Positions 5,423 through 40,786 of a DNA stretch of 46,410 nucleotides are shown piece after piece (positions within the stretch are counted from its first letter, which is position 1; each line of letters starts with the position of its first letter). The notes beneath the pieces are model-generated. The model worked only from the letters and a program-made list of their open reading frames with translations, was not told where the DNA came from and did no database searches. Where the stretch lies: contig CAJWSW010000014.1 of NCBI GenBank assembly GCA_913046035.1, positions 1 through 46,410 on the forward strand, written 5' to 3'. A program made the position numbers and the translations under genes. The DNA comes from an uncultured Alphaproteobacteria bacterium (lineage in GTDB: Bacteria; Pseudomonadota; Alphaproteobacteria; MPNO01; UBA830).

Positions 5423-5601
5423 GTCTAAATGACTGAAACGCAATGCATTTATACGACTGGAAATATTTGCTCTTACATAACGAAAGCGCAGCTCAACGCA
5501 ATCTTAATCAAGGAAAACGATTAGCTCTGAACTACAACGCTCAACACTAACTTCAATACACTGTCATCACGCTTTTAACTTGAGGGGCGTTTAATCACAT
5601 T

Positions 5602-23058: not shown

Positions 23059-23260
23059 GTCGAGTCATCATAGTCGATGAACAACCCGAATCGCGAAAAA
23101 CGACGTCTGAAAACCCGAAAGTTTACCGATATAGTGCTTCGCATGAGCACCAATTGGGAAACCTCATCAAAAAGCCGATTTATCAAGCTTTATGGACTTG
23201 CGCGTCTCCTCAACACCGATATCATTGAAGTTTAAGAGGCGCCCTGTTAGGAGCATAACG

Positions 23261-24118: not shown

Positions 24119-24123
24119 GCGGC

Positions 24124-26016: not shown

Positions 26017-26607
26017 TTAGTCGAGATCGAAGGGGACTTGATTAGGGCCCGAAAACTTTACCTTCCCGCCATCATCGTAGTACCGGTACTGCTCGAAAGT
26101 ACCGGATTTCTGGCTTCGAACGATCACAGCCACCGTTTTTTCGTCACCAGCGTATTCTGAATGTATTTCCCAGGGCGGAACAATATCGACATCGCCAGGG
26201 CCACAATGCTCGGCAAAATCCTCCTCATAGAATGCTTCGCCGTCACTCTTCTTTGCCTCGACGTAACGCACGATCCGTTCAGCGCCTCTAAGCAATCCGT
26301 AAACAGTCCATGCCTTCCCGTGATCATGGATCATTGCTCGGCCACCAGGATTTTTTATTAAACCGTTAATGACGAAGTGATGGTCGGGATCTTCATAGAA
26401 CAGCAAGTTGTCAACCTTCTTGCCATCAAAGCCGCCGACCGGCCAGTTTTCCGCATGTGCCTGTAACGCCGGATCTTTCAGCAACTCCTTCAAAAGTTCA
26501 CGGCATTTATCCCAACGCTCGGTGTCATCTCGGCTCGTACCGAGACAAACTGCGCGCATCTTGTCGACAAACGTCTCAACAGCAGGGATCATTTTCTTAC
26601 GTGTCAT
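26017..26607 (-). CDS. Cysteine-dioxygenase-like cupin
   Basis: A 196-residue protein with a cupin core. The metal motif IHDHGKAWTVYGLLRGAE (93-110) supplies H94 and H96, and H149 in PPWEIHS completes a three-His site as in thiol dioxygenases. The spacing and the VYGLLRG block resemble predicted metal-dependent enzymes of the cysteine dioxygenase group, which oxidise thiols or related small acids with oxygen. The frame can be extended to a TTG at 26631, but ATG 26607 has AGAGG just upstream. It starts 25 bases after the PhyH stop and precedes the FAH gene. Confidence 0.78.
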   Translation of the reverse strand: MTRKKMIPAVETFVDKMRAVCLGTSRDDTERWDKCRELLKELLKDPALQAHAENWPVGGFDGKKVDNLLFYEDPDHHFVINGLIKNPGGRAMIHDHGKAWTVYGLLRGAERIVRYVEAKKSDGEAFYEEDFAEHCGPGDVDIVPPWEIHSEYAGDEKTVAVIVRSQKSGTFEQYRYYDDGGKVKFSGPNQVPFDLD

Positions 26608-26631
26608 CTTAACCTCTTCTAGATCGGGCAA

Positions 26632-27471
26632 TCAGGCGGGTGTTTCCGTCCCTTTGCGGCTGCGAGATAAAAATTCTCGCCGCAACGCAATAAGCTCTTC
26701 AAGCCGTTTAGGCTCAAAATCAGCAACCGCGAGCCTTTCATGTTCCCAGTGTCCGTATTCATCTTTGCCGCGAACTAGTGCAGCCTTTGGCATAGAATTA
26801 GGCTGGTTGTATTTCACCCGCCGCACATTGGTAGGGATATAGTGGATGGACAAACCGATGCGTCGGTCATTGGATTTGTTTGGACTCGAGCCATGAACAA
26901 CCGCCTCGTGATGCATAGAAAATTCACCCGGTCTCAGGACCATTGGTATGGCCGCATCTTCATCCACGTCGACAATAGTTTGACCCCGTGCAAGCAGGTT
27001 ATCTTTATGCTCAATATTATCAAACGCCAAAACCTTCCGGTTTCTATGGCTACCTGGAACCACACGAACACAGCCAGATTCAGAATTGCTGTGGGTGATT
27101 GAAAGCCAAACAGTAAGTGTTTCTGGCGGCTCAAGGCCATAATAGTAGGTGTCCTGGTGCCAGGACACAAAGCGCGGATCATTCGCATTCTTCTGAAAAA
27201 AGCTAGACCCCCAGCATAACAGGTTAGGGCCCAATATATCTTCCACTGCATCTAAGATAATTGGGTTTGTAATTACATCAGACAGCCAGCTGAATGGCAG
27301 GTGGGCCTTAAACGCCAACGTCTGCTGTGCCTCACAAGCTTGTGCTTTCTCGAAAGCCTCAATCCGATTCCGTAGTGCACCTGCGCTTGATTCACTAAGA
27401 GCACGTAAAGGACAGACGAAACCCTCACGGTCATATTGCTCTATCTGTTCAGGCGTAAGTACCTTAGCCAT
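26632..27471 (-). CDS. Phytanoyl-CoA dioxygenase (PhyH) family oxygenase
   Basis: A 279-residue Fe(II)/2-oxoglutarate oxygenase. The iron triad is H105-x-D107 in SWHQDTYYYG and H193 in HEAVVHGSSPNKS; the 2-oxoglutarate-binding Arg is R203 or R204 in NDRRIGLS. The CVRVVPGSH strand between them is the PhyH hallmark. Members hydroxylate fatty acyl-CoA, ectoine, halogenated or phosphonate compounds, so the substrate stays open. It is the first gene of the minus-strand trio PhyH-cupin-FAH. Confidence 0.88.
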   Translation of the reverse strand: MAKVLTPEQIEQYDREGFVCPLRALSESSAGALRNRIEAFEKAQACEAQQTLAFKAHLPFSWLSDVITNPIILDAVEDILGPNLLCWGSSFFQKNANDPRFVSWHQDTYYYGLEPPETLTVWLSITHSNSESGCVRVVPGSHRNRKVLAFDNIEHKDNLLARGQTIVDVDEDAAIPMVLRPGEFSMHHEAVVHGSSPNKSNDRRIGLSIHYIPTNVRRVKYNQPNSMPKAALVRGKDEYGHWEHERLAVADFEPKRLEELIALRREFLSRSRKGTETPA

Positions 27472-27719: not shown

Positions 27720-28667
27720 ATGACTACGCTTATCACCGGTGCCGGACTTATTGGTACGGCCTATGCAAAAGAAGCGGCAAAACGCGGCGAGAGGACCATT
27801 TTCATCGATCCTTATCCCCGTGATGACTACCTTTCCATGCGGCTGGGAGACGTAAAATACGAGTTGATACGTGACGATGTCCGTAGTCTTCCTGCGCTCA
27901 TCCACGCAATCAACAAACACAGACCTGAGACACTTCTTCATACGGCGGGACTTATAGGTAAACGCGTGGCCGATCCGATGCATACCGGATACGATTTAAA
28001 CGTCGGCGGCATGCTGTCCGTGGTGGAAGCAGTGCGGTTGACAGGAATTAAACGTCTGGTCCTGCTTTCGACCTTCGGGGTCTACGACTGGCGGCTAGGC
28101 GACCATGAGACCAAAATCTCAGAAACCTTCCCTCGAGGTAGCGGTGCTGCTTATTCCAATTCAAAAGCAGCGCAGGAGCTGATCGTCGAAGCATATCGCA
28201 TTCAATACGGATTTGAAGCTGTAATTCTACGTCCTGGCAATGTATTCGGAATGGGCCATTTCTGGGGTGGCTCCGGCGGCGGCGAGAAAGTACATTCGCT
28301 TATCAAAGCGGGCGTCCTTGGCACAAAAGCCGTAATCCCCGAAGAACAAACTATGGCGTTTGAATACGTCTACGCCGACGACATGGGCCGCGCCGTAGAT
28401 ATGGCGATCACTAAACAAGGGCTGCCAGCCGATGCGGCATATAACCTTTCATGGGGCCGGGCCATTACCTTCGATGAATTAGTCCAAGCCGTTAGAACAT
28501 CGTTGCCTGAACTAACCCTGGAAATAAAACCTGGTACACCGCCGATTTCGCGTATGACAGCACTCGATACACGACGCGCTAAGGAGGAGCTAAGTTGGGA
28601 GCCGACCTATACGCTCGAGGAATCCTTAGCCGCTTATGCGAGCGAATTCCGCAGGTTTATTAGTTAA
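27720..28667 (+). CDS. NAD-dependent epimerase/dehydratase family protein (extended SDR)
   Basis: A 315-residue extended short-chain dehydrogenase. The nucleotide-binding motif GAGLIG is at 7-12 and the acidic end of the second strand (IFIDPY) favours NAD. The catalytic residues are S117/T118 in LLSTFG and the Y145-x3-K149 pair in AAYSNSK. Family members act on nucleotide sugars, lactones or similar. The local context is catabolic rather than polysaccharide synthesis, so a non-sugar role is possible. AAGGGGA precedes the ATG. It converges on the enoyl-CoA hydratase with 17 bases between the stops. Confidence 0.83.
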   Translation: MTTLITGAGLIGTAYAKEAAKRGERTIFIDPYPRDDYLSMRLGDVKYELIRDDVRSLPALIHAINKHRPETLLHTAGLIGKRVADPMHTGYDLNVGGMLSVVEAVRLTGIKRLVLLSTFGVYDWRLGDHETKISETFPRGSGAAYSNSKAAQELIVEAYRIQYGFEAVILRPGNVFGMGHFWGGSGGGEKVHSLIKAGVLGTKAVIPEEQTMAFEYVYADDMGRAVDMAITKQGLPADAAYNLSWGRAITFDELVQAVRTSLPELTLEIKPGTPPISRMTALDTRRAKEELSWEPTYTLEESLAAYASEFRRFIS

Positions 28668-28684: not shown

Positions 28685-29410
28685 CTATTTTTTCATTGCA
28701 GCGGCCGTATTGACCATAGAGTGAATGCTACGGGCATAATCAATGGCACCTTGCTCGTCCATGCGCGGAGCACTGTGGAGGTATTCTTTTAAACCTAGGA
28801 TTGCCGGCCGCGGCCGACTGGTTAGCAGACCACAAAACCGATCCACCTCAGCGTCCAATTCCTTGGCATCAACAACGTTGCTAACTAAACCGTAATTCAG
28901 CGCGCGATCGGCATCTATAAAGTCTGTAGAGTAAGCCATCCAGAGAATAGCATTCCGGTTCATCCGGTCATAAAGTGCCGACATTACCATGGTGGGCATT
29001 ACATTATGCCCAACCTCTGGAATGTTGAAGGTGGCAGTGCTGCTGGCGAACGAAATGTCACTGACGGCAGTCACTGCGGTGCCAAAGCCCATGCACCGCC
29101 CCTCAATAACGGTCATTACCGGTACCTGAGCATCTTTAATAGATCGATAACAACCAAATATTGCGTCATATTCTGGGCGGCGACTATAAGCCTCAGGCGA
29201 GGGTGGTCCAGCGCTGTCATCGCGGATACGTCCGGTGCAGAAATCCGGACCTGTGCTTCTCAGCAAAACCATGTCTGAATTCTCATGCGCAGACAAAATA
29301 GCCTCTGAGAACTGCCTCGCCATACTGTCCGAGACACCATTATCAGGCGTTCGGTTAAATGTGGCTCTGAGGATGCGTCCGTCTTGTTCCAGCAGAATAT
29401 CATCGCTCAT
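28685..29410 (-). CDS. Enoyl-CoA hydratase/isomerase family protein
   Basis: A 241-residue crotonase-fold protein. The oxyanion-hole segments appear as FCTGRI and GRCMGFGTAV. One catalytic Glu is visible in NIPEVGHNVMP, while the position of the second Glu of true enoyl-CoA hydratases is not acidic (RNAILWM). That leaves isomerase, hydrolase or decarboxylase activity equally likely. ATG 29410 has GAGGGAG upstream; a longer frame to a TTG at 29425 is less likely. It is the last gene of the minus-strand block with the molybdenum hydroxylase subunits, 30 bases after the first large subunit. Confidence 0.82.
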   Translation of the reverse strand: MSDDILLEQDGRILRATFNRTPDNGVSDSMARQFSEAILSAHENSDMVLLRSTGPDFCTGRIRDDSAGPPSPEAYSRRPEYDAIFGCYRSIKDAQVPVMTVIEGRCMGFGTAVTAVSDISFASSTATFNIPEVGHNVMPTMVMSALYDRMNRNAILWMAYSTDFIDADRALNYGLVSNVVDAKELDAEVDRFCGLLTSRPRPAILGLKEYLHSAPRMDEQGAIDYARSIHSMVNTAAAMKK

Positions 29411-29440
29411 CGTTTTCTCCCTCAAAGAATATTAGTTTCA

Positions 29441-31840
29441 TTATTTGGATTTTTCGTAAAGCGCAGTCTCAATGTCGCGGGCCCGGATCGGAAGCTCGTT
29501 GATTTCAATATCGAGAGGGCGGAGCGCATCATTTACCGCTGATGCCACTGCGGCTGGAGCTCCAAGATATCCTCCTTCACCCGATCCCTTTTGTCCGAGC
29601 GAGGTCAATGGCGAAGGGGTGCAGTGTTCTACATCAGTCACCGTTGGAATTTCATGAGAAGATGGTAAAAGATAGTCGACGAAGGTTCCCGCCAAAAGCT
29701 GGCCGTCTGGATCATATTCAAATTTCTCGTATAACGCCGCGCCAATACCGTGCGCAACGCCGCCAATGATCATGCCTCGCACGATATCGGGATTTATCGC
29801 GGTACCGCAATCATGTGCGATGTAGTAATCATGTAGTTTTACCTTACCGGTATCACGATCAATTTCGACAAGCGGAACGTGTGCCTGAAAGGAGAAACAC
29901 GGGTATAGCGGGACCTCATTTTTTTCATTTGGCAACTGCCCCGCGCCGGGCACTTGTTGCACCGAATAAGCCTGCAGACCAAGTTCTTGACCCGGCGGCA
30001 TTCGATGGAATTGCTTGTGTGCGATGTGGCAGACCTCTTCCCAAGACAACTTTTTTTCTGGCTCGCCGCGCATGCTAAACTCGCCGTCGGCGTATTCGAT
30101 TTGCTCCTTCTCTACCCCGATATCGTAAGCTGCGATAGTTATCATCTTATCTTTGATTTCCCGCGCCGCGTTGGAGGTCGCAGTTCCCAACACTATAGTC
30201 ATTCTGCTCGCTACCGGGCTCCGCGTTGGAAGCGCCTCAAGTGAGTCACCATGTACAACACGTATCGTATCTGGGTCGCGCTCAAGCTCCTCGCCAGCGA
30301 TAGTAGAAACCATTGTTTCGTGCCCTTGTCCCGAAGTGGTAGTGCACATGACTGCGGTGATCGCGCCACTGGGTTCAACCTTTATCAGAACAGATTCTAC
30401 AAACGTCGTGATTTCTAGCTTGGGATTGAATAGATATTCGAAGATATTATTGCCACCGCCAGGTTCGAGACAGGTTGCAATGCCGACACCTGCTAGCTTT
30501 CCTTCCGCACGCAATGCATCACGCCGGCTAATTAGTTCCTGCCAGTCGGATGTCTTAATGGCACTATCGAGTACAGCATGAAAATCCCCGGAGTCGTAAA
30601 GAGATCCTGGAGGTATTTTCCAGGGGAATTCATCCTTACGAACGAGATTTCGGGCGCGCACCTCGACCCTATCGAGTCCCAAAAATTTAGCCACTCTCTC
30701 CAGTCCGGTCTCGACCGCAAAATTGGTTGGTGCCTGTCCAAACCCTCGCACTGGCACCTGTCCAGTCTTGTTTGAGGTTACCGAAATCGCTTCATATTCG
30801 ATTGAGTTTACGCGATAGGGACCGCACAACGCCGTCATAGGTTTCCCGAGTTGAAGAGGTGCGCGGCCGGGATAGGCTCCAACATCATCCAATGCACGCA
30901 TTTTCATCGACTTTATGACACCGTCGTCGTCAAACGCCATAGTAACATCAAAGATCCGGTCGGGCCCGTGAGCATCACCACCCGACATATTATCCAATCG
31001 ATCCTCAATAAAGCGAACTGGCACGCCGAGACGCTTTGCGAGATAACACACAAGCACCGTGTGCTTGATCCCACGTTTTACACCATAGGAACCACCGACA
31101 TCGACATCGTTATGAACACGAACATTATTCATAGGCATGCGCAAAACCGCAGCGATTTGATCTTGGTATTGCGGCATCTGGATTGAGGCCCAAACATCCA
31201 TAACTTCTGTGGTCTCGTCCCACTTAGCGACCACACCAAACGTTTCGATAGGTACAGTCGATGAGCGACCCCAGCGCGCCCTGTAGCTAATTGTGTGCGG
31301 CATACTGGCGAAGTCATCCGCTACAGGACCCCATTCCCAGGTTTTTCGAAATAGAATGTTGCTACCGTGTTCCGGATGGACCAATGGCTGATCTTCATCA
31401 ATCATCTTTTCCGTGTCTACAGCAGCCGGCAGAGACTCGTATTCGACTTCAATCAATTCGGCAGCATCTTCTGCTATATATCTTGTATCAGCGACGACAG
31501 CGGCGACCCACTCACCTGCATAACGGGTCATACCGACAGCAAGCGGATGCCACTTAACATTGGGAAGGTCTAAACCATGAAAAAGTGAGCTTGTCTCCCT
31601 AGCCAATTCATCACCAGTCAAAACATAATGCACGCCTGACATTGACATTGCGGCACTGGTATCAATTTTGAGGATGTTGGCACGGGGGTGTGGGCTAGGA
31701 AGCACAGCCACGTGTTTCATCCCAGGGACCTCGACATCGGCAACAAACTTGCCGCGCCCAGTAATAAAGCGCCGATCTTCCTTCGTACGCCGCTTCCGTG
31801 AAACGTAACGGTAATTTGAAAGCGTGGTGGTCTGGCCCAT
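29441..31840 (-). CDS. Molybdenum hydroxylase large subunit (CoxL/XdhB-like)
   Basis: A 799-residue molybdopterin-cytosine-dinucleotide-type large subunit. It begins with RKEDRRFITGRGKFVADV-like sequence and contains DVDVGGSYGVKRG and the late GQKGSGEGGYLGAP, whose Glu is the base that activates the Mo-bound water. The active-site loop reads VPVRGFGQAP (about 375-384). This is neither the AYxCSFR of form I CO dehydrogenase nor the AYRGAGR of typical form II, so CO is unlikely to be the substrate. More likely it hydroxylates a (hetero)aromatic or aldehyde carbon. It overlaps the 2Fe-2S gene by one base (TAATG) and is followed by the enoyl-CoA hydratase. Confidence 0.9.
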   Translation of the reverse strand: MGQTTTLSNYRYVSRKRRTKEDRRFITGRGKFVADVEVPGMKHVAVLPSPHPRANILKIDTSAAMSMSGVHYVLTGDELARETSSLFHGLDLPNVKWHPLAVGMTRYAGEWVAAVVADTRYIAEDAAELIEVEYESLPAAVDTEKMIDEDQPLVHPEHGSNILFRKTWEWGPVADDFASMPHTISYRARWGRSSTVPIETFGVVAKWDETTEVMDVWASIQMPQYQDQIAAVLRMPMNNVRVHNDVDVGGSYGVKRGIKHTVLVCYLAKRLGVPVRFIEDRLDNMSGGDAHGPDRIFDVTMAFDDDGVIKSMKMRALDDVGAYPGRAPLQLGKPMTALCGPYRVNSIEYEAISVTSNKTGQVPVRGFGQAPTNFAVETGLERVAKFLGLDRVEVRARNLVRKDEFPWKIPPGSLYDSGDFHAVLDSAIKTSDWQELISRRDALRAEGKLAGVGIATCLEPGGGNNIFEYLFNPKLEITTFVESVLIKVEPSGAITAVMCTTTSGQGHETMVSTIAGEELERDPDTIRVVHGDSLEALPTRSPVASRMTIVLGTATSNAAREIKDKMITIAAYDIGVEKEQIEYADGEFSMRGEPEKKLSWEEVCHIAHKQFHRMPPGQELGLQAYSVQQVPGAGQLPNEKNEVPLYPCFSFQAHVPLVEIDRDTGKVKLHDYYIAHDCGTAINPDIVRGMIIGGVAHGIGAALYEKFEYDPDGQLLAGTFVDYLLPSSHEIPTVTDVEHCTPSPLTSLGQKGSGEGGYLGAPAAVASAVNDALRPLDIEINELPIRARDIETALYEKSK

Positions 31841-32322
31841 TATAGACCCTCCTGCCGGCGTTCAGCCGCCATCTTTACCGCTTCGACAATCTGCTGATAG
31901 CCTGTACAACGGCATAAATTACCGCTGATTGCCTCTCGTATATCGTGATCGTCCGGACTCGGGTTTTCCATCAATAGAGCATGACTTGAAATAAGCATCC
32001 CAGGTGTACAATAGCCACACTGCATCGCATGGCATTCCCAAAAGGAATCTTGCAGATCGCTAATCTCACCGTCTTCGCCAACCAGCCCTTCGACAGTCGT
32101 TATTTCATGACCCTCAGCCTGAACAGCAAACATCAAACAAGACCGAACGGGCTCCCCGTCAAACATTACTGAACAAGCGCCGCAAACACCGTGCTCGCAA
32201 CCCACATGGGTCCCAGTAAGCCGCAAAATATCCCGCAGACAATCAACTAGCGTCATCCGAGGCGCAACATTCACAGTGTGAACACGTTTGTTTACCGTCA
32301 GAGTAACCTCAATCTCTTTCAT
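31840..32322 (-). CDS. Molybdenum hydroxylase 2Fe-2S subunit (CoxS-like)
   Basis: A 160-residue iron-sulfur subunit carrying both clusters. The plant-ferredoxin type site is CEHGVCGAC with a later Cys in VRSCLMF, and the second is CGYCTPGM with CRCTGYQ. It passes electrons from the molybdenum site to the FAD subunit. The open frame runs to 32349, but ATG 32322 follows GGAGG and gives the family start KEIEVTLTVN. It overlaps the medium-subunit gene by 14 bases and the large-subunit gene by 1, a tight M-S-L operon. Confidence 0.93.
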   Translation of the reverse strand: MKEIEVTLTVNKRVHTVNVAPRMTLVDCLRDILRLTGTHVGCEHGVCGACSVMFDGEPVRSCLMFAVQAEGHEITTVEGLVGEDGEISDLQDSFWECHAMQCGYCTPGMLISSHALLMENPSPDDHDIREAISGNLCRCTGYQQIVEAVKMAAERRQEGL

Positions 32323-33187
32323 TTTTTGCCTCCGAAACCGCGTCCTCAATAGCCCTCGTAATTAACCGCCTCGCAACACGTGAACGATAGCCGGCGGTCG
32401 CGTGCACATCTGTGTCGGGATCAATTTCTTCATCCAAACCATCAAGAGCTGAACTTAATTCAGCCGGTTTGGATCCCTTCAAAGCAAGTTCAACACCGCG
32501 CAGTTTTAGAGGGCATGGCGCGACACCGCCCGCACTAACCGCCGCTTTAACGATTGTCCCGTCGGCGGCGAGCTCTATCTGCGCCATCGCCGATACGATA
32601 GCGTAATCACTTTCTCGGCTAGCAGTTTCGTAAAAACCTGTCCCTATGGAAGCTCCCTCCCACACAGGTATTCGAACCTCCGTCAAAATCTGATCGGGTT
32701 CGATGTTCGTTACCATCGCTGCTTCAAAGAAGCCATCCAACGGGACCTCTTTCTCCTCAGAAACACTGCGCAGCAACACCGATGCTTCTAGCGCCAGTGC
32801 CGCCATTGAAATTTCGGCTGTCGGATCTCCATGCACTATGCTACCACCGATCGTGCCCCGATTTCGCGTCTGGATGTGACCAACCTTTCGGATAGCTTTA
32901 GCCAACAAAGGTAGGCGTTTAGATATAATTTCGGATCTCTCCAATGCGCGCTGACGCGTACATCCGCCAATGACCAAGTGGTCGCCCTTGTCCTCAATCT
33001 CCGAGAGACCGTTGACGTCATTTATATCTATGAGCATATCCGGCCGAGACATTCGCATGGCCATCAGAGGTACAAGCGTTTGTCCTCCTGCAATGATTTT
33101 ACGTTCCATCTCACCTGCGTCGGCCAAAAGGCGACAGACCTCGTCAACACTTGCGGGGCGTACATAATCAAACGTTGCGGCTTTCAT
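32309..33187 (-). CDS. Molybdenum hydroxylase FAD subunit (CoxM-like)
   Basis: A 292-residue FAD-binding medium subunit. Its two FAD motifs are AGGQTLVPLMAMR (about 34-46) and TIGGSIVHGDPTAE (about 111-124), as in CoxM. It begins with the usual FDYVRPASVDEV. It would receive electrons from the CoxS-like subunit and hand them to an acceptor. The following gene overlaps its end. Only one copy is present for two large-subunit genes, so it may serve both. Confidence 0.93.
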   Translation of the reverse strand: MKAATFDYVRPASVDEVCRLLADAGEMERKIIAGGQTLVPLMAMRMSRPDMLIDINDVNGLSEIEDKGDHLVIGGCTRQRALERSEIISKRLPLLAKAIRKVGHIQTRNRGTIGGSIVHGDPTAEISMAALALEASVLLRSVSEEKEVPLDGFFEAAMVTNIEPDQILTEVRIPVWEGASIGTGFYETASRESDYAIVSAMAQIELAADGTIVKAAVSAGGVAPCPLKLRGVELALKGSKPAELSSALDGLDEEIDPDTDVHATAGYRSRVARRLITRAIEDAVSEAKNERD

Positions 33188-33291
33188 AAAAAATATATTC
33201 CTATGTTTTCGATATTCGGAGCATAACAGTCAATCACCGTCCAACTAGATGTTTAAAGATATGATTAAACAGAAAAGGATGGTAGCCCAAG

Positions 33292-33306
33292 GCGCCAAAT
33301 TGGCGC
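33292..33306 (-). terminator. Hairpin downstream of the second large-subunit gene
   Basis: GCGCCAA (33292-33298) and TTGGCGC (33300-33306) are perfectly complementary around one base. It lies 6 bases past the stop of the second large-subunit gene. No T-run follows in either direction, so it may be a weak terminator or a processing stem in a longer transcript. Confidence 0.3.
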
Positions 33307-33312
33307 ATACAG

Positions 33313-35637
33313 CTAAGAGCCAGCCTTTATCAATTCCCAGACCTTTCTCGGCGTAACCGGCATTTGTATATCACGCACACCAAACGGTCTGAGCGCATCT
33401 ACAAAACCATTAACCAGTACGGCTAACGCAGGCGTCGTGCCACCCTCACCGCCCGCCTTCACGCCCAACGGGTTCGTTGGTGATGGCACTTCATTTAGCT
33501 CAGTTTTAAATGAGGGATATTCGTCTGCCCGTGGCATGTGATAATCCATAAATGAGCCGGCTAGCGGCTGTCCTGACTCCGGATCCATCGCGCAGAGTTC
33601 CCCAAGGGCTTCCCCCGCCCCCTGAACGATGCCCCCATGAGTTTGACCATCGACAATGAGTGGGTTGATTGCACGTCCAACATCGTCAACTGTCGTGTAG
33701 CGAGCAATTTTATACGCGCCTGATACAGGGTCGATTTCGATCTCGCATATGTGACAGCCATTGGGAAAAACTGGCGTCTCCATGACATTATCTTCAATTA
33801 CCGACAATTTCTCAGGCAAATCTGAGCGGCGTCCAACTACTTCCGCCAATGCGTAAAGGGAAATCTCTCGGTCGGTACCGACGACTTGAAACTTACCGTC
33901 GTGAAATTCAAGATCAGTTTCCGCGGCCTCAAGCACCACGGCTGCAAGTTTCTTACTCTTCTCGATAAGTTCGTCGGCCGCCTTCACGATCACGGTACCA
34001 GCCATACGCATTGAACGCCCGCTGTGAGACCCACCGCCAACCTTCACAAGATCTGTATCCCCGACGATCACTGAAATCGTATTAACAGGTACTCCTAACC
34101 ACTCGGCAGCAACCTGAGCGAAGCTGGTTTCATGGCCCTGTCCACTCGGTTGCGTGCCAATAACAAGGTCTATATGACCGTCAGCCCGCACGTGGATTTC
34201 CGCTTGTTCGCGCGGTGTACCGATCGAGGACTCCACATAATTTGCAAATCCCCGACCTAATAACATTCCTCGGCTTTCAGCTTCTTTTTTACGCGTCTCG
34301 AAACCGCGCCAGTCAGCCAGGTCCATACACATATCCATGCTTTTAGCGTATTCGCCGCTGTCATAAGTCATACCCACAGCATTTGGATAAGGCATCTGTT
34401 CGGATGATACGAGGTTCTTGCGCCTCAATTCGATGGGGTCGTAACCAAGTTCCGCCGCTGCAGTCTCTACCAGTCGCTCAATTGCGAACGTCACCTCAGG
34501 TCGCCCGGAACTCCGATATGCGTTGGTTGGAGCAGTATTGCTGAAAACCGCACGGGACCGAAGATACGCAACCGGGATATCGTACGAGCCCGTGATAAGT
34601 CCAGATCCCTTACTCAAAGGCGAAAGCGAAACCATACGCGATCCGACGTTTGATAGGTTATCTGCGCGCATAGCGAGAAACTGTCCCGCGTCATCAAGAG
34701 CAAGCGAAACCCGCGTTACAAGATCACGACCCTGATAATCACTTAAAAATGACTCGCCCCGGTCACAGGTCCATTTGACTGGGCGCCCAATCTTGCGAGA
34801 GGCCCATCCGACCAGAGGGAATTCCACATAAAGACGGTTACGAGTTCCAAAGTTGCCTCCAACGTCTTTGGAGACCACACGGACTGTGTCGCCCTCAACT
34901 CCGAGCACCTCAGCAATTTCGCGCTTTTGTCGCACCGAGCCTCCCGACCCTGCATATATAGTGTACCGACCCGTGTCTAAATTGTAGTCACCGAGTGCCG
35001 CCCTCGGCTCCATCGGGACACCAGTAACTCGATCGATAACGATGTCCATTTCGACAACATCCTGCGCTGCCGCGAAAGCAGCATCGGTGCGCTCTTTATC
35101 ACCAAAGAACGTCTCGACACATATGTTATCCGGCACTTCGTCCCAAATTGTCGGCGCACCGTTTTCCGCTGCCTTTGCCGTATCAGTTACAGCCGGTAGC
35201 GGATCATAATTGACCGACACTACCTCTGCCGCATCTTCCGCTTGAGCGAGTGTTTCCGCAACGACGATCGCAATTGCCTCACCGACGTAACGCACTTTAT
35301 CTGTTGGCAACAGTGTGTGATCACCTATGAAAACTTCGGATCCATTTGGCCCCTCAAGTTTCATATCGTGTTTCGTTGACGGTAATGGGCTGTGGGGAAT
35401 TGGCGCTAAATTGTCCAAACGAGCGTCATCACCCGTCAAAATCGTCAACACCCCTGGCATTGAGCGCGCAACCTCAACGTCAATGCCCAAGATAAACGCG
35501 TGGGCATAAGTAGACCGCACCACTGCCATGTATGTCTGACCGTCGACTGACCAGTCGTCGCTGAAGCGACCTTGTCCTTTTAGGAGCCTCGCATCTTCCC
35601 GACGGCGAACCGGTTGACCAATTTTCTGATATTTCAT
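33313..35637 (-). CDS. Second molybdenum hydroxylase large subunit (CoxL-like)
   Basis: A 774-residue large subunit starting YQKIGQPVRRREDARLLKGQGRFSDD, the standard CoxL-family entry. The loop NAYRSSGRPE (about 372-381) is of the form II type rather than the CO dehydrogenase form I, and GVKAGGEGGTTPA near the end holds the catalytic Glu. It is clearly diverged from the large subunit at 29441. No partner 2Fe-2S or FAD gene lies upstream, so it may share the M and S subunits encoded downstream. It is separated from them by 125 bases with one hairpin. Confidence 0.9.
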   Translation of the reverse strand: MKYQKIGQPVRRREDARLLKGQGRFSDDWSVDGQTYMAVVRSTYAHAFILGIDVEVARSMPGVLTILTGDDARLDNLAPIPHSPLPSTKHDMKLEGPNGSEVFIGDHTLLPTDKVRYVGEAIAIVVAETLAQAEDAAEVVSVNYDPLPAVTDTAKAAENGAPTIWDEVPDNICVETFFGDKERTDAAFAAAQDVVEMDIVIDRVTGVPMEPRAALGDYNLDTGRYTIYAGSGGSVRQKREIAEVLGVEGDTVRVVSKDVGGNFGTRNRLYVEFPLVGWASRKIGRPVKWTCDRGESFLSDYQGRDLVTRVSLALDDAGQFLAMRADNLSNVGSRMVSLSPLSKGSGLITGSYDIPVAYLRSRAVFSNTAPTNAYRSSGRPEVTFAIERLVETAAAELGYDPIELRRKNLVSSEQMPYPNAVGMTYDSGEYAKSMDMCMDLADWRGFETRKKEAESRGMLLGRGFANYVESSIGTPREQAEIHVRADGHIDLVIGTQPSGQGHETSFAQVAAEWLGVPVNTISVIVGDTDLVKVGGGSHSGRSMRMAGTVIVKAADELIEKSKKLAAVVLEAAETDLEFHDGKFQVVGTDREISLYALAEVVGRRSDLPEKLSVIEDNVMETPVFPNGCHICEIEIDPVSGAYKIARYTTVDDVGRAINPLIVDGQTHGGIVQGAGEALGELCAMDPESGQPLAGSFMDYHMPRADEYPSFKTELNEVPSPTNPLGVKAGGEGGTTPALAVLVNGFVDALRPFGVRDIQMPVTPRKVWELIKAGS

Positions 35638-35732
35638 TTCGTACGAGCGTTATCCATCTTGGAATTTGTTTATATACTTATCCCCATACGCCACCGTATG
35701 GTGTTGGTCAAGGTTTTGGCCGGGAGGAAACG

Positions 35733-36236
35733 TCAATTTGCAAACCGACGCTGCAGGTGAGGCACCAACCCGCCGTCCACCATCATCGCTAAGAGATGTT
35801 TAGGCATTGGTTCGCATGAATATTGCACTCCAGTTTCTTGTATACAAACGCTACCAGCCGTCGCGTCGATTGATATGTGTTGTCCCGCGGTAATTTGCTT
35901 TGCATTGGGGCATATTAGTGTCATGAGCCCATGATTTATCGCATTACGATAAAATATCCCACCAAACGAAGGAGCCAGCACAGCGGCTACGCCGTGATAA
36001 ACCAGTGATTGCGCCGCCTGTTCACGAGATGAGCCTATCCCAAAACTCTTACCTGCGCAGATCACATCGCCCTTATTAACATTTTTTACAAAATCGGGTT
36101 CGACAGTTTCAAGACAATGAGAAGCAATGACCTCGGTTGAGCTCTTCATATACAGTCCGGGTGCCAAGACATCGGTATCGATATAGTCACCAAAGGCCCA
36201 AACTTTAGCGCCTTTTATAAGCCCATGGGTGTTCAT
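35733..36236 (-). CDS. Aconitase-family small subunit (LeuD-like hydro-lyase)
   Basis: A 167-residue swivelling domain. It has GDYIDTDVLAPG (about 16-27) and the substrate-binding KSFGIGSSREQAAQ (about 63-76), where SSR is diagnostic. The short size and loop sequence match the archaeal-type small subunit that pairs with the 420-residue large subunit. Together these proteins hydrate or dehydrate 3-isopropylmalate, homocitrate, maleate (D-malate forming) or 2,3-dimethylmalate. Catabolic neighbours make a degradative role more likely than leucine synthesis. Its start overlaps the large-subunit stop by 4 bases. Confidence 0.88.
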   Translation of the reverse strand: MNTHGLIKGAKVWAFGDYIDTDVLAPGLYMKSSTEVIASHCLETVEPDFVKNVNKGDVICAGKSFGIGSSREQAAQSLVYHGVAAVLAPSFGGIFYRNAINHGLMTLICPNAKQITAGQHISIDATAGSVCIQETGVQYSCEPMPKHLLAMMVDGGLVPHLQRRFAN

Positions 36237-37498
36237 CGGAGGAACTCCCGGGGGTCTTTGATCTCGCCCGCTACCGCTGCGGCTGCAACTGTATATGGAT
36301 TGCCAAGATAAACCTGTGAGTTTGTCGCCCCCATACGCCCCTTAAAGTTTCGCGCGGTCGACGCAATACACACCTCGTGTTCAGCCAATACCCCCGCCCC
36401 GTACCCAGCGCACGCTCCACAGCCGGAAGGCATCATAATCGCTCCAGCTGCTGTCAGCGTCGCTAAAGTGCCATCTGCCGCTGCCACCGCCGTGTCTTTC
36501 TGAGAAGCTGGTGCAATCAAAAGTCTCGCGCCCTTTGCCACGTCACGCCCCTCGAGTATTTCGGCCGCCATTCGCAGATCGATTAGCTTTGCGCCTGTGC
36601 ATGCTCCAATGTATGCCTGATCGATTTTGACACCCTCGACTTCTGCTACTGGCGCCGAATTGGCGGGGCTATGAGGAGCCGCGACTTGCGGTCCAAGGGC
36701 CGCAATATCGATTTGATGCGTTGACCGCACCAATGCCTGCGGGTCGGTCAGCCATCGTCCGAAATCGCTGGGCTCAGCTCCTGCGTTTCGAATAAATTCA
36801 GCGGTTGTTTTATCTCCCGCTATAATCCCAGTCTGAGCACCTAGCTCCGCCGCCATGTTGCAGAGTGTCATTCTTTCTGACATTGGGAGGGTGGAAATGG
36901 TATCTCCTGTGTATTCAATAACCTGGTAGTCCGCTCCATCCATTCCTAGTCTTGCGCAAAGCGCAAGCATGACATCCTTCGCACTCACGCCTTTAGGCAT
37001 TCCACCCGTAACCTCGACCCGGACAGTCTCCGGCACTCGCACCCAAGTCTCCCCTGTCGCAAGCACGCCGGCCATATCCGTCGCGCCAATGCCAAACATA
37101 AAGCAGCCGAATGCGCCGCCAGTTGGCGAATGGCTATCCCCACCAACGACAAACATGCCTGGTTTTAGATGGCCGCGTTCGGCCAGCACCACATGGCATA
37201 TACCCTGCATATCGTAAAAGTGTGGCAAGCCCTGCTCCGTGGCGAATTTTCTAGTTACATCTAAGATCTGGGCACTCTCAGCATCTACAGCAGGTACATA
37301 ATGATCTGAAATCAAAACGACCTTGTCAGGGTCCCAGACCCCCACACCCAGTTTTTCAAGGATAGGCCTTACCCGGCGCGGACCCCCAGAGTCGTGGATC
37401 ATTGCGAGGTCAACGGAGCATGTCACGATTTCTCCAGGCACAACTTTATCCAGACCCGCCGCATGAGCGATGATTTTCTGTGCCGACGTCTCAGCCAA
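36233..37498 (-). CDS. Aconitase-family large subunit (LeuC-like hydro-lyase)
   Basis: A 421-residue 4Fe-4S hydro-lyase subunit of the LeuC type. The cluster cysteines are C300 (IGACTGAK), C360 and C363 (SGCGACAGYG). The substrate-binding stretch DSHSPTGGAFG (121-131) is intact. I place the start at the TTG at 37498: GGAGG lies at 37506-37510, and the codon begins 3 bases after the TAA of the flavoprotein gene. This makes the two genes translationally coupled. The longer frame to 37558 overlaps that gene without family resemblance. Possible activities are those given for the small subunit. Confidence 0.87.
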   Translation of the reverse strand: MAETSAQKIIAHAAGLDKVVPGEIVTCSVDLAMIHDSGGPRRVRPILEKLGVGVWDPDKVVLISDHYVPAVDAESAQILDVTRKFATEQGLPHFYDMQGICHVVLAERGHLKPGMFVVGGDSHSPTGGAFGCFMFGIGATDMAGVLATGETWVRVPETVRVEVTGGMPKGVSAKDVMLALCARLGMDGADYQVIEYTGDTISTLPMSERMTLCNMAAELGAQTGIIAGDKTTAEFIRNAGAEPSDFGRWLTDPQALVRSTHQIDIAALGPQVAAPHSPANSAPVAEVEGVKIDQAYIGACTGAKLIDLRMAAEILEGRDVAKGARLLIAPASQKDTAVAAADGTLATLTAAGAIMMPSGCGACAGYGAGVLAEHEVCIASTARNFKGRMGATNSQVYLGNPYTVAAAAVAGEIKDPREFLR

Positions 37499-37500
37499 AA

Positions 37501-39216
37501 TTATGCCTCCGCTTTCTGATCGCTTAAAAGACCTGCTGCGTGCATTGCGACGCGCCATCCGAAGACGACGGCTGGGCCAAGGGTCGTGCCGGGTCCGGGA
37601 TAGGATCCCGACATCAAAGACCCCATGTCGTTGCCAACGGCGTAAAGCCCAGTTATGGGCTGATGTTGAGCATCAAGCACACGACCAGAGGGGTCCGTTG
37701 ATAATCCCACACTGCAGGCGATTTCTGCCGGCCACACCGCTATAGCCACAAACGGACTTTTTTCGATTAACCCCAAACATGGATTAGGCGCATGCAATGG
37801 ATCCCCGTTAAAGCGGTTCAGCTCCATGTCTCCTTTGCCAAAGTCTTCATCAGTGCCCGTCCGCGCGAAATCATTATTACGGGCTACGGTGTCCAGCAGA
37901 CCGTTAGGATCGACGCCAATTTTTGATGCCAGCTCTTCGAGATTCTCAGCCAGCGTTACATAACTGTTAGCAATGTGTTTCGATAAATCCCTCGTTTCAG
38001 GATGTATAGCGCCCAATCCATATTTGGTCACAAAAGCCCGTTCGCAGACTAACCAAGCGGGGAGAGTTGAGGCGGTCTGATGGGACCTGTACATCGCTTC
38101 AACAAAATCGTGATACGAAACGGCTTCGTTTACGAAACGCCGACCCTCAGCGTTTACGGCAATGAGGCCGGGTTTTGCTCGGTCCATGGCAAGATGTGGA
38201 AAGAGACCCTTTGTACCATCGGCTCGAGTAGTCACTGAGACTGGCGACCATAAACCGCCGCCTTGTCCCGACGTATCAATCCCTGCGCCAGCAGCATCGG
38301 CTAATACAAATCCATCACCTGTATTGGAAACGGGTGCCATAGAGTGGGGAGGCGTAGGATGGGGCATAAAGGCTTTGCGGTATTCTGTATTATGCGCAAA
38401 CCCGCCTGTCGCTAATACAACACCCTTTCGAGCGCGCACACGCTTGTCTCCGTTGGTGGTCTCCAACACGGCCCCAACAACCACCCCGCCTTCACGAATG
38501 AAATCTTTTATAGGGCTCTGAAACATTACAGAAACATTGCGCTTTTTAAGACTGTAAAATAGCCTCGCTATAAGTGCATTTCCCATTACGAGACGTGTTC
38601 CCCTGCGAAAACGCAAACGATCTGAAAGGTAGCGCAACACTAACGAAGCCGATCGCCGAAAAGCCGCAAAAGATTTATAGCGACCGAGTAAATTCACGAT
38701 ATCTGTCTTCCCAACCATCATGCCTCCCATTAGCATAAATTCGGGAATTGGAGGCCGAACGCGTTCAAAATCTTTACCAAGAAGCCGTCCGTCAAAAACA
38801 TCAGGAATTATCGCGCGGCCAGCAAGCCCGGCACCGCTAAGATTGTTCCGATAATCGGGATGCATCCCGCAAGGAAGAAACTTCACGTCGGTTTTATTTT
38901 CCAAATAATCAATAACGCGTGGTCCATCTTGCAAGTATATTCGCCTGTGTTCAGATGCTCGGTCATCGCCGATAAGCTGATCGAGGTAAGTAGCCGCGTC
39001 TTCGGGGGAATCCTCGAAGCCTGCCTTTCGGCTTTGCGAATTTCCGGGGATCCATAAGGTGCCCGCAGATGTTGCCCCCGTACCACCAACCTGCCTAGTT
39101 TTCTCACAGACAATCGCAGTTAACCCTTCGATCGATGCTACAAGCGCCACCGTCATACCTGCAGGGCCAGCTCCAGCAATCAGCAAATCAGTCTCGATAT
39201 CCCAAGTCGGCTCCAT
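37501..39216 (-). CDS. FAD-dependent oxidoreductase of the fumarate reductase / ketosteroid dehydrogenase family
   Basis: A 571-residue flavoprotein. The FAD motif GAGPAGMTVA is at 14-23, and GGTGATSAGTLWIPGN (44-59) follows the acidic ribose binder. The second FAD segment GVVLATGGFAHN (about 280-291) and the C-terminal GSYPGPGTTLGPAVVFGWRVA complete the family pattern. Relatives reduce or introduce C=C bonds next to carbonyl or carboxyl groups (fumarate, urocanate, 3-ketosteroids). No export signal or haem motif is visible, so it is cytoplasmic and needs an outside electron partner. It sits between a cupin and the coupled LeuC/LeuD-like genes. Confidence 0.88.
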   Translation of the reverse strand: MEPTWDIETDLLIAGAGPAGMTVALVASIEGLTAIVCEKTRQVGGTGATSAGTLWIPGNSQSRKAGFEDSPEDAATYLDQLIGDDRASEHRRIYLQDGPRVIDYLENKTDVKFLPCGMHPDYRNNLSGAGLAGRAIIPDVFDGRLLGKDFERVRPPIPEFMLMGGMMVGKTDIVNLLGRYKSFAAFRRSASLVLRYLSDRLRFRRGTRLVMGNALIARLFYSLKKRNVSVMFQSPIKDFIREGGVVVGAVLETTNGDKRVRARKGVVLATGGFAHNTEYRKAFMPHPTPPHSMAPVSNTGDGFVLADAAGAGIDTSGQGGGLWSPVSVTTRADGTKGLFPHLAMDRAKPGLIAVNAEGRRFVNEAVSYHDFVEAMYRSHQTASTLPAWLVCERAFVTKYGLGAIHPETRDLSKHIANSYVTLAENLEELASKIGVDPNGLLDTVARNNDFARTGTDEDFGKGDMELNRFNGDPLHAPNPCLGLIEKSPFVAIAVWPAEIACSVGLSTDPSGRVLDAQHQPITGLYAVGNDMGSLMSGSYPGPGTTLGPAVVFGWRVAMHAAGLLSDQKAEA

Positions 39217-39293
39217 TATGGCGCCTCTCCGATCCCTTCGCCCGCTCCATTGACCAACGCACGCTTTTCAAAGAATTGTAGCTCCATGGTGGA

Positions 39294-39668
39294 TCAGAGC
39301 TCGTTGGTGTCAAAATCGGCAGGCATTATGATTTCTAGTAATTCGCAGTCGTCAGAATATCCGAGTACAGTGTGTTTGATATTAGGTGGCTGCAACCAAC
39401 TTGAACCTTCACGCATTGTAACCACCTCCCCGTCATATTCGCCTTTCATCCAACCCTTGAGGCAATAGAGGAATTGAAACTCGATATCATGAGTGTGGCG
39501 TTTCGATACCTCTTTTTCGACAAAAGGAGGAACAAGTTTGATTACATGTGCACGAACCAAACCATTAGTAGCCTCAACCAAGCCGAGGTCTCGATACTTA
39601 GCGTACGCGCGAAGGCCCTCTTTAAAAGAACTAGTTGTCAAATGATTGAAAAAAAACTTTTGCGTCAA
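39294..39668 (-). CDS. Small cupin-domain protein
   Basis: A 124-residue single-domain cupin. The first motif is KRHTHDIEFQFLYCLKGWMKGEYDG (starting near residue 56), and the second LQPPNIKHTV (about 92-101) supplies another His. It could be an isomerase, a dioxygenase or a small-molecule sensor; there is no DNA-binding domain. The start is TTG at 39668 with GAGGGAAG directly upstream. It lies 77 bases before the flavoprotein gene on the same strand. Confidence 0.75.
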   Translation of the reverse strand: MTQKFFFNHLTTSSFKEGLRAYAKYRDLGLVEATNGLVRAHVIKLVPPFVEKEVSKRHTHDIEFQFLYCLKGWMKGEYDGEVVTMREGSSWLQPPNIKHTVLGYSDDCELLEIIMPADFDTNEL

Positions 39669-39707
39669 TTAACTTCCCTCGCCCACCAAAATATACACAC
39701 CCGCTTT

Positions 39708-40433
39708 TTAAGAGGCCGCCCCTCGCGGGCGTAATTCAATCAAGTCATTGGCGCAATTATCACTTGATAGCAGCGCAAAGGTGACCGCCCTTGCCACCTC
39801 TTCGGGTGTTAGCGGCTCAAATTTGCGAGCGCTTAAGGCGGCAATTACATCGGGGTGATCGCTGCTTTCGCGTATGTCAGTGTCAACCATCCCAGGCGCG
39901 ATTTCACTGACTTTTACACCTTTGGCTTGTAACTCTATTCGAAGAGCATTAGCAAACGCAGACAAAGCATGCTTTGTCGCGCAGTAGATTGATCCAAGTG
40001 GGTACACTTCTCGTGCCGCTGTCGAGGTCATCACGATAATGTGCCCGCGACCACGCTCAACCATTGCTTTGGCAATCTCATGCGTTATACGGAAAGTACC
40101 CAACACGTTCGTGTGAACCATTTCCTCGATATCGTCGTAAGTCAAATCAAGTATAGGCGCGTACTTCAGAACGCCCGCATTACTCACTAAAATGTCTACG
40201 TGGCTCGCGCTCGCTACAAGCTCGGCAACGAATTCACCATCATTCAAGTCGCCTGCAATCCCGGCTACACGATCTGTCCCGTATTTGGAGACTAATGCAT
40301 CAAGTGCTGCCTCTCGACGCCCTGTCGCTATTACGTTCAAGCCATGATCGACTAGATTTTTGACTATCGCTTTTCCAATACCAGCACTCGCGCCGGTCAC
40401 AAGTGCTGTTTTTCCCGAGAGATTTCTTGCCAT
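39708..40433 (-). CDS. Classical short-chain dehydrogenase/reductase
   Basis: A 241-residue SDR of the classical kind. The cofactor motif is TGASAGIG (about 13-20), NAG follows in LVSNAGVL, and the catalytic Ser-Tyr-Lys is seen in MTSTAAREVYPLGSIYCATK. An Arg after the second strand (ATGRREAAL) suggests NADP(H). The frame extends to 40484, but the ATG at 40433 gives the normal N-terminus. It is the first gene of the minus-strand catabolic block and would oxidise or reduce a hydroxyl/carbonyl in the pathway. Confidence 0.86.
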   Translation of the reverse strand: MARNLSGKTALVTGASAGIGKAIVKNLVDHGLNVIATGRREAALDALVSKYGTDRVAGIAGDLNDGEFVAELVASASHVDILVSNAGVLKYAPILDLTYDDIEEMVHTNVLGTFRITHEIAKAMVERGRGHIIVMTSTAAREVYPLGSIYCATKHALSAFANALRIELQAKGVKVSEIAPGMVDTDIRESSDHPDVIAALSARKFEPLTPEEVARAVTFALLSSDNCANDLIELRPRGAAS

Positions 40434-40786
40434 TTTGAAGCCGCCGCTTACTACAGAAATGCTAGAATTTAATTCCACGGACAACGGTGCCGGAGTCTCA
40501 GGAAATGTTCAACCCCATAACGTAAACAGCGATCTCGTAGCTAAAAATTTGTAATCAACAATATAATCGAGGCAACCAACGTATTTTCCAAACTAACGAG
40601 CGCTGCACGCCTTTGAAAATTTGTATCCTGCAAACGACGTAGTGCTCTCTGTCGAACATTAGCTGCGAGTATTATCAGCGTTGCTTCGGAATAATAGACC
40701 TGTGGTTTATCTGGGAGAATTTGGCCGATGGTTTGGCATTTATACCTTCTATATCCATCCAAATCTCTTTTTGGCGCCTAAAAACT
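40434..40786. other. Gene-free stretch before the catabolic block
   Basis: I see no convincing gene in these 353 bases. A 73-codon minus-strand frame (40541-40762) begins with TTG, has no ribosome site and no recognisable similarity. The region should hold the promoter of the SDR-led block, but I could not pick out a clear -35/-10 pair. Confidence 0.5.

Follow-up and report, generated by a model that had tools for sequence, protein, structure and literature searches.

Eight genes for molybdenum hydroxylase subunits, a LeuC/LeuD-type hydro-lyase, a flavoprotein and a crotonase-fold protein form a conserved block in an uncultured alphaproteobacterium

We analyzed a 46,410-nucleotide stretch of DNA from an uncultured marine-type alphaproteobacterium, hereafter the window (assembly GCA_913046035.1, contig CAJWSW010000014.1; G000:C14:1-46410 in our numbering), and found in it a tight block of eight genes on one strand. 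In the direction of reading, these genes encode a flavin adenine dinucleotide (FAD) flavoprotein, the LeuC and LeuD subunits of an aconitase-family hydro-lyase, a molybdenum (Mo) hydroxylase large subunit (MoL2), the medium and small subunits of such an enzyme (MoM and MoS, or M and S), a second large subunit (MoL1), and a crotonase-fold protein. All belong to known enzyme families, in a combination matching no described pathway that we found; a search of the open-licence literature, outside which most subscription journals lie, returned none with this gene set. We propose, giving the idea about an even chance of being right, that the eight genes are a catabolic operon for an aromatic, most likely heteroaromatic, carboxylic acid, in which ring hydroxylation would lead to a maleate-type diacid that LeuCD would hydrate.

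The window genome (G000) comprises 2.78 Mb in 127 contigs and is 91% complete. It was compared with G001, of the same genus, and with four further genomes of its family (f1): G002, G004 (83% complete), and G003 and G005 (90% and 86% complete), which belong to another genus. Class-wide searches scored the best few candidates per genome (three for MoL1 and MoL2, seven for the flavoprotein, and 20 for UbiD). Family profiles came from Pfam and NCBIfam, and scores were compared with the NCBIfam cut-offs.

Layout and Conservation of the Block

The preliminary description of this DNA had seen a minus-strand block of ten genes. Ten long minus-strand open reading frames (ORFs) do lie at 28685-40484, with gaps of -58 to +125 bases between them, and Pfam and NCBIfam agree with the families that had been named for all ten. 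The block itself, however, consists of eight genes beside a separate unit of an SDR and a cupin. The first of the eight encodes the FAD flavoprotein (37501..39216, minus strand like those that follow; PF00890). Next come LeuC, the large subunit of the hydro-lyase (36233..37498; PF00330), and LeuD, its small subunit (35733..36236; PF00694 and LEUD_arch), with the substrate loop PGLYMKSS. These are followed by MoL2, a large subunit without S and M genes of its own (33313..35637; PF01315, PF02738, and PF20256), the FAD-binding MoM (32309..33187; PF00941 and PF03450), the [2Fe-2S] subunit MoS (31840..32322; PF01799 and PF00111), MoL1 (29441..31840), which resembles quinoline 2-oxidoreductase (1t3q), and the crotonase-fold protein (ECH; 28685..29410; PF00378), whose start we took as the ATG at 29410.

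G001 keeps this order throughout, with identities from flavoprotein to crotonase of 79, 83, 72, 84, 75, 81, 92, and 95%. Because eight of the ten ORFs have syntenic homologues at 72-95% identity, the ten-ORF observation is not a matter of chance. The shared order extends past the left border given earlier, 28685, through four more genes to 24977. As in the window, the crotonase of G001 is followed by a convergent NAD-dependent epimerase/dehydratase on the other strand (27720..28667, plus; PF01370; syntenic in G001, G003, and G005 at 74, 62, and 63%), a PhyH-type oxygenase (26632..27471, minus; PF05721; 73% in G001), a cupin-like protein recognized by eye and without a Pfam match (26017..26631, minus; 84% in G001 and 68% in G005), and a fumarylacetoacetate-hydrolase (FAH) family protein (24977..25912, minus; PF01557; 79% in G001).

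The cupin (39294-39668, minus; PF07883) and SDR (39708-40433, minus; PF00106) adjoin the other end of the block and show no match in 40 kb of G001 around its block, where a rodA-like gene (by eye) lies upstream of the flavoprotein gene. Their orthologues stand together at G001:C4 (cupin 81%, SDR 76%) and at G003:C312 (cupin 84%, SDR 86%, the latter cut by the contig end), in both places with a second SDR adjoining and with no Mo subunit match beside them in the 17.0 and 8.1 kb covered. Since the pair was not found around the G001 block and stands together elsewhere in two sister genomes, we rejected both genes as block members and treat the locus as an eight-gene block and a foreign pair. Gene-order conservation, one check put forward with the ten-gene proposal, holds in G001 for the eight genes and not for the SDR and cupin.

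Several overlaps had been reported between the genes. Those between LeuD and LeuC (4 bases) and between MoL1 and MoS (1 base) remain, and the two largest look like products of ORF calling. The longest LeuC ORF reaches 37558 and overlaps the flavoprotein gene by 58 bases; a TTG at 37498, right after the flavoprotein stop and with a GGAG box ahead, removes this overlap, and the best LeuC family profile begins at residue 24 of the longest ORF. Similarly, the longest MoS ORF reaches 32349, which gives a 41-base MoS/MoM overlap that shrinks with the ATG at 32322, ahead of which stands GGAGG. A scan for promoter-like sites (13 versus 16.8 in shuffles) and terminator-like sites (19 versus 16.8) found no excess and was dropped as operon evidence; a single transcript is therefore an inference.

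Mo Hydroxylase Subunits

The Mo genes carry the parts of the xanthine oxidase family, namely the hammerhead and two MoCo-binding domains, an FAD subunit, and a [2Fe-2S] subunit, with one S and one M subunit present for two large subunits. The best solved relative of MoL1 is quinoline 2-oxidoreductase (1t3q, 6e-117) and that of MoL2 is CoxL (7e-144). The active-site Glu is kept in both. Compared with quinoline 2-oxidoreductase (QorLMS) and related N-heterocycle hydroxylases, the window shares the three-subunit make-up and differs in having an extra large subunit beside its one M/S set and an attached crotonase. Form I aerobic carbon monoxide (CO) dehydrogenase was rejected as an identity: MoL2 has AYRSSGR where CoxL has AYACSFR, and MoL1 has VRGFGQ, so that the Cys of AYxCSFR, which we take to be the motif of that enzyme, is absent, and the CO dehydrogenase scores fall far below the NCBIfam cut-offs (508.6 versus 950 and 469.8 versus 991). 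Nicotinate dehydrogenase was rejected as well, since each large subunit is one unsplit chain (799 and 774 amino acids), and the matches to quinoline oxidoreductase and CoxL are far stronger than those to 3hrd, a weak relative (8e-27 to 4e-30).

Relatives of MoL1 at E <= 1e-150 occur in 10 of 289 sampled genomes of the class, the window genome counted. The four closest MoL2 relatives in the class sample are at G010:C15 (67%), G007:C18 (64%), G033 (62%), and G138 (58%), and those in G033 and G138 stand beside UbiD. In G010, G007, and G138, the next gene after the MoL2 orthologue encodes a protein about 310 amino acids long (L154 8731-9663, L155 7528-8463, and L157 7920-8843); these proteins look like NMT1/SsuA-type binding proteins by eye, without an obvious signal peptide, and none follows the window MoL2.

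The gene set suggests that MoL1 and MoL2 share the single M/S set. This fits a genome-wide excess of MoCoBD_1 over Fer2_2 domain matches, which stand at 37:16 in G000, 37:18 in G001, 37:14 in G004, 22:8 in G007, 36:12 in G010, 42:14 in G012, and 53:21 in G015. Because large-subunit matches outnumber [2Fe-2S] ones two to three to one, many Mo large subunits seem to lack an S partner of their own.

Flavoprotein and LeuCD Active Sites

The flavoprotein scores 731 bits with PRK12843, below the cut-off of 758, and 458.7 with PRK12844 (cut-off 789); the KstD-type equivalog cut-offs of NCBIfam are not reached, and the model for 4-oxocyclohex-2-ene-1-carboxylate 5-dehydrogenase gives 434 bits against 900. 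Its best solved relatives are 3-oxosteroid dehydrogenases. In an alignment using what we take to be the KstD catalytic numbering (Tyr119, Tyr318, Tyr487, and Gly491), all four catalytic positions are kept (HPDY, VSYH, and GSYPGPG). The protein is therefore predicted from its sequence to be of the 3-ketosteroid-delta1-dehydrogenase type, acting in alpha,beta-desaturation beside a ring carbonyl. Relatives at E <= 1e-100 are found in 9 of 190 genomes of the class, the nearest at 47% identity and none that good in G007.

LeuC scores above the NCBIfam cut-offs for hacA_fam, IPMI_arch, and PRK00402, and its three Fe-S-site Cys residues are kept in alignment to 4kp1. LeuD reaches 161.7 bits with LEUD_arch (TIGR02087; cut-off 108.95), a model that covers LeuD and DmdB together. 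By these cut-offs (NF001614, TIGR01343, TIGR02086, and TIGR02087) and cysteines the pair belongs to the LeuC/LeuD-HacA/HacB hydro-lyase family, while the homoaconitase equivalog cut-offs are not reached (HacA_Meth 427.9 versus 550; HacB2_Meth 144 versus 230). The best solved match of LeuD is the homoaconitase small subunit 2pkp, in which YLRT aligns with the window's YMKS; the Arg of this homoaconitase loop presumably reads the distal carboxylate. Among 78 relatives, the position holds Lys in 54, Arg in 8, Gln in 7, Ala in 4, His in 3, and Ser in 2; the LeuD of family f2 of the same order has no basic residue there. Archaeal homoaconitase and isopropylmalate/citramalate isomerase are thus alike in family, Fe-S cysteines, and (for homoaconitase) a basic loop residue, and they differ from the window LeuCD, which stays under the equivalog cut-offs and stands in a catabolic neighborhood. 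Further LeuC/aconitase-like genes of the genome lie at C9 and C6; a leucine-pathway role for LeuCD was rejected on this ground, which supports an aconitase-family hydro-lyase distinct from the housekeeping one.

The Crotonase and an Order-Wide Mo-Crotonase Module

Of the two positions that we take to be the usual catalytic Glu sites, the crotonase carries Ala at the first and Glu at the second. A first-site Glu is found in 0 of 15 aligned sequences, a second-site Glu in 15 of 15, and His135 is invariant in all 15, so that the window protein lacks the two-Glu signature of an enoyl-CoA hydratase proper. Its fold appears ordinary in an AlphaFold model (pLDDT 85), whose best match is the crotonase 3myb (Z 28.1 over 237 residues, rmsd 2.3). 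The model matches many CoA-type crotonases about equally, which does not settle CoA use; non-CoA crotonases are not prominent among the 50 model matches listed, a result that excludes nothing.

A search of 27 genomes of the order found a crotonase match at E <= 1e-30 in 25 and an orthologue of at least 65% identity in 16, counting the window genome and one split into two pieces (G018). MoL1 adjoins the crotonase in all 16 orthologous loci, and MoS and MoM are present in 14, the other two being cut by contig ends. Twelve of these loci belong to family f2. There a divergent UbiD gene stands beside MoM in 10 (G016 is without it and G024 is cut), and TRAP transporter matches lie farther out in 10 (the G022 and G024 loci are cut). 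Families f3 and f4 have another pair, a MoL2-like gene (55-56%) and a crotonase (45-56%), which in six of seven loci has a UbiD-like gene (28-40%) no more than about 10 kb away; the seventh locus, in G017, is a contig of 4.9 kb on which only the crotonase is present. MoL1-MoS-MoM-crotonase is thus an order-wide module, usually beside a UbiD decarboxylase in f2. The window block shares with these clusters orthologous MoL1, crotonase, MoS, and MoM and a related MoL2, and it differs from them in having a flavoprotein and LeuCD and no UbiD or transporter.

LeuCD in Other Settings

We surveyed LeuC in named genomes, taking the best 80 of at least 586 relatives, one of which is G004's own contig. 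Many of the stretches are short, and the following counts are lower bounds: LeuD in 78 loci, a PrpB/isocitrate-lyase-type gene in 65, HyuB in 51, HyuA in 45, an isochorismatase-type hydrolase in 45, a GntR regulator in 37, and another flavoprotein in 34. Profiles on examples describe HyuBA as caprolactamase-like, the lyase as PrpB-like, and the hydrolase as RutB/biuret-hydrolase-like, all under equivalog cut-offs. Several loci (L035, L038, L040, L064, L072, L084, and others) show a set of GntR, a LivHMGF-type ABC or TRAP transporter, PrpB-like lyase, HyuB, HyuA, isochorismatase-like hydrolase, and flavoprotein genes. This widespread set, found in Alphaproteobacteria and others, looks like a cyclic imide or lactam route, and we found no description of it in the open-licence literature, with most subscription journals again outside.

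In a LeuC tree of 99 rows (a quick method with SH-aLRT support only, and with a long-branch warning outside the window's clade), the window, G001, and G004 sequences form one clade (SH-aLRT 100) inside the lyase/HyuBA-linked group, and f2 LeuC falls in a separate clade. G004 carries LeuC(cut)-LeuD-HyuB-HyuA(cut), its LeuC 82% identical to the window's, and in G002 LeuCD likewise stands beside HyuBA, with a PrpB-like lyase also present; no close crotonase orthologue was found in either genome. In the window genome, where the search for HyuBA was not genome-wide, a HyuBA pair at C13 is only 31-35% like the query. Given the tree placement and the HyuBA neighbors in G004 and G002, the window's genus appears to have moved LeuCD from a HyuBA setting to the Mo hydroxylases, which stand in the window in place of those neighbors. 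Fragments of the Mo part persist in the other genus of the family, as MoL2(cut)-MoM-MoS-MoL1-crotonase-epimerase in G003 and as MoL1(cut)-crotonase-epimerase in G005. The eight-gene block is a mosaic, partly assembled from modules with other histories.

The f2 LeuCD, of the other clade, was found in 10 of 13 f2 genomes and not in G007, G022, or G025. It is grouped with a Mo large subunit (MoLb), UbiD, and crotonase in nine of the ten loci (the tenth is cut by a contig end) and with a PrpB-like lyase in nine; all ten also hold genes for a PcaD-like hydrolase and a cupin. The preliminary description had named homologues that never co-occur as an outcome that would speak against one route; in f2 such homologues do occur together, with Mo hydroxylase, UbiD, crotonase, and lyase. 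At L109, in Xanthobacteraceae, LeuCD and a lyase stand with UbiD-, Mo-large-subunit-, and crotonase-like genes (34, 35, and 27% identical to the queries), and a gene that looks like an acyl-CoA ligase by eye lies between the Mo and crotonase genes.

Genome Setting and Other Loci

UbiD-family domains are numerous, with 28 matches in G000, 28 in G001, 22 in G004, 28 in G007, 36 in G010, and 37 in G012. Among 142 genomes of the class, 78 have none, G000 and G007 reach all 20 candidates scored, and the other 62 have 11 or fewer, 49 of them one. In G012, UbiD and Mo large-subunit genes show no clear excess of proximity: among the matches listed, which take in 20 of the 42 for Mo and 31 of the 37 for UbiD, 2 lie within 5 kb versus 1.3 expected (reached in 0.37 of rotations) and 5 within 10 kb versus 2.4 expected (reached in 0.09). 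Adding three Mo genes known from clusters, a biased choice, gives 4 versus 1.5 and 8 versus 2.8.

No account of the UbiD expansion was found in the open-licence literature, outside which most subscription journals lie, and a term search of PMC6946804 turned up no names of UbiD or Mo-hydroxylase-type enzymes. Arctic Ocean alphaproteobacterial clades are enriched in aromatic-compound genes (PMC9789639), and five SAR202 single-cell genomes hold 28 proteins of one CO/xanthine-dehydrogenase-type family, interpreted there as part of the oxidation of complex substrates (PMC5395668). SAR202 is alike in being a marine lineage with many such paralogues, proposed to oxidize refractory matter; here Mo paralogues occur together with about 28 UbiD paralogues, in Alphaproteobacteria, and "UbiD" is absent from the text of that paper.

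A gene pair on the plus strand at 23192-24837 encodes an extradiol-dioxygenase-like VOC protein and then a class II aldolase/3,4-dihydroxyphthalate-decarboxylase-like protein, both with weak family scores; it is possibly another ring-cleavage pair adjoining the block. Elsewhere in the window, positions 3004-8817 hold an imuA-imuB-dnaE2 type mutagenesis cassette (by eye), and positions 8821-9264 a small VOC protein with weak FosA-type matches (30 bits versus a cut-off of 180), which is not a resistance call. On another contig of the genome, G000:C13, the first 1.4 kb (1-1412, L228) encode Lys- and Asn-rich proteins, nadD- and proA-like by eye, as in an AT-rich genome and unlike the rest of that stretch; this is possibly an assembly chimera.

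Discussion

The family and motif evidence supports a catabolic set with Mo-dependent ring hydroxylation, as originally suggested, and with a flavoprotein acting next to a carbonyl. In the route that we propose, the MoL1/M/S hydroxylase would add a hydroxyl next to the ring heteroatom, and MoL2, using the same M/S set, would perform a second oxidation to an imide-, lactone-, or anhydride-like ring, which would open to a substituted maleate-type diacid. The KstD-type flavoprotein would introduce or remove a double bond beside a carbonyl. LeuCD, with Lys where homoaconitase has Arg, would then hydrate the diacid to a substituted malate, and an unlinked PrpB-type lyase would cleave this to give pyruvate or glyoxylate along with another acid. 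The crotonase may act on a side product or a CoA ester. Of the CoA-linked steps envisaged in the preliminary description, the crotonase is the sole pointer, and no CoA ligase is in the block; the idea of one route for the whole set gains from the conserved eight-gene order and loses the SDR and cupin.

Several observations weigh against this proposal. The block has no gene for a lyase, a CoA ligase, a transporter, a regulator, or UbiD. The four PEP-mutase-family genes of G000 are only 29, 35, 41, and 42% identical to the usual LeuCD-partner lyase, and the last adjoins a methylcitrate-synthase-like gene (by eye). A Mo hydroxylase subunit match stands in only 8 of the 80 LeuCD loci. By an estimate without a control, chance alone would give about as many, since each genome carries numerous Mo genes; the count speaks against a broad association between LeuCD of this subfamily and Mo hydroxylases. 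Within f1 the LeuCD-Mo linkage occurs in two genomes of one genus only. LeuC of the window subfamily was not found in G003 or G005 (best 2e-13 and 8e-35), though both keep the Mo-crotonase genes, and the MoL2 loci at G010:C15 and G007:C18 show no UbiD, LeuCD, or crotonase match in the 20 kb covered. Finally, the 2.78-Mb genome holds 37 large-subunit domain matches, so that it is not very improbable for other genes to end up next to one.

These points feed a different account, which we consider doubtful but a real possibility: a Mo-crotonase module, a MoL2 standing alone, and a flavoprotein-LeuCD pair released from a HyuBA operon would have come to lie together by coincidence, perhaps under a shared promoter, and would serve two or three routes. 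The Mo-crotonase genes of G003 and G005 without such a LeuC, the LeuCD-HyuBA genes of G004 without a close crotonase orthologue, the SDR-cupin pair located elsewhere, and the wealth of Mo large subunits are all as this account would have it. The tight spacing, with its 4-base and 1-base overlaps, and the order kept in G001 at 72-95% identity speak against coincidence, as does the grouping of Mo, crotonase, and LeuCD in f2, where LeuCD comes from another clade.

If the substrate is instead a five-membered heterocycle, which we think unlikely, a furan or pyrrole acid (derived, e.g., from tetrapyrroles or furan fatty acids) would undergo two Mo oxidations to a substituted maleate with an extra carboxylate, which LeuCD would handle like a methyl-homoaconitate, and cyclic imides would yield this diacid through the widespread HyuBA operon. 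The LeuD loop resembles that of homoaconitase, and 65 of the 78 relatives have a basic residue there (Lys 54, Arg 8, His 3); both points favor this version, and the LeuCD partners (PrpB-like 65 of 80, HyuB 51, HyuA 45, RutB/biuret-hydrolase-like amidase 45) would form a logical series from imide to half-amide, diacid, hydration, and cleavage. The f2 UbiD is closest to the solved entry 6h6x, which we take to be furandicarboxylate decarboxylase; this similarity is low, however. The f2 LeuD and 13 of the 78 relatives are moreover without the basic residue, and the window block has no lyase. In a bolder form, to which we give slightly less credence still, the block and its HyuBA-linked relatives would be two ways into a single, undescribed catabolic trunk, cyclic imides entering through HyuBA and the amidase and furan or pyrrole acids through two Mo oxidations. 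The trunk would consist of an alkylated maleate with a third carboxylate, its hydration by a homoaconitase-like LeuCD, and PrpB-like cleavage, with tetrapyrrole debris (e.g., hematinic acid) or furan fatty acids as natural substrates. The furoate (Hmf) pathway uses furoyl-CoA synthetase and an HmfABC-type dehydrogenase; by their enzyme families, the ten genes include no CoA ligase.

Nicotinate fermentation in Eubacterium barkeri runs through dimethylmaleate hydratase, with reductase, enamidase, B12 mutase, and isomerase steps. Its Mo hydroxylase and LeuD/DmdB-family hydro-lyase have counterparts in the window, where the small subunit scores above the TIGR02087 cut-off. The window is nonetheless without the split nicotinate dehydrogenase (3hrd A and B), its unsplit large subunits being far closer to quinoline 2-oxidoreductase and CoxL, and the other steps are not represented among the ten genes; profiles of these ten found no enamidase- or B12-mutase-type family, with no genome-wide search made. 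A nicotinate-type route is accordingly very improbable, in agreement with the earlier statement that the block is not simply that pathway. More improbable again is an aerobic CO dehydrogenase with accessory genes, for which the closeness of MoL2 to CoxL is offset by the absent motif Cys and the low profile scores.

To return to the heteroaromatic acid operon that we propose, if it is real, it names concrete enzymes and test substrates for ring-shaped organic acids for which we found no degradation route described. Since named Nisaea, Stappia, Roseibium, and Hoeflea strains carry the LeuCD/HyuBA operon, tests of the central idea need no culture of the window's organism. More broadly, the gene inventories single out an order of Alphaproteobacteria in which small genomes carry a wealth of enzymes for ring hydroxylation and ring decarboxylation.

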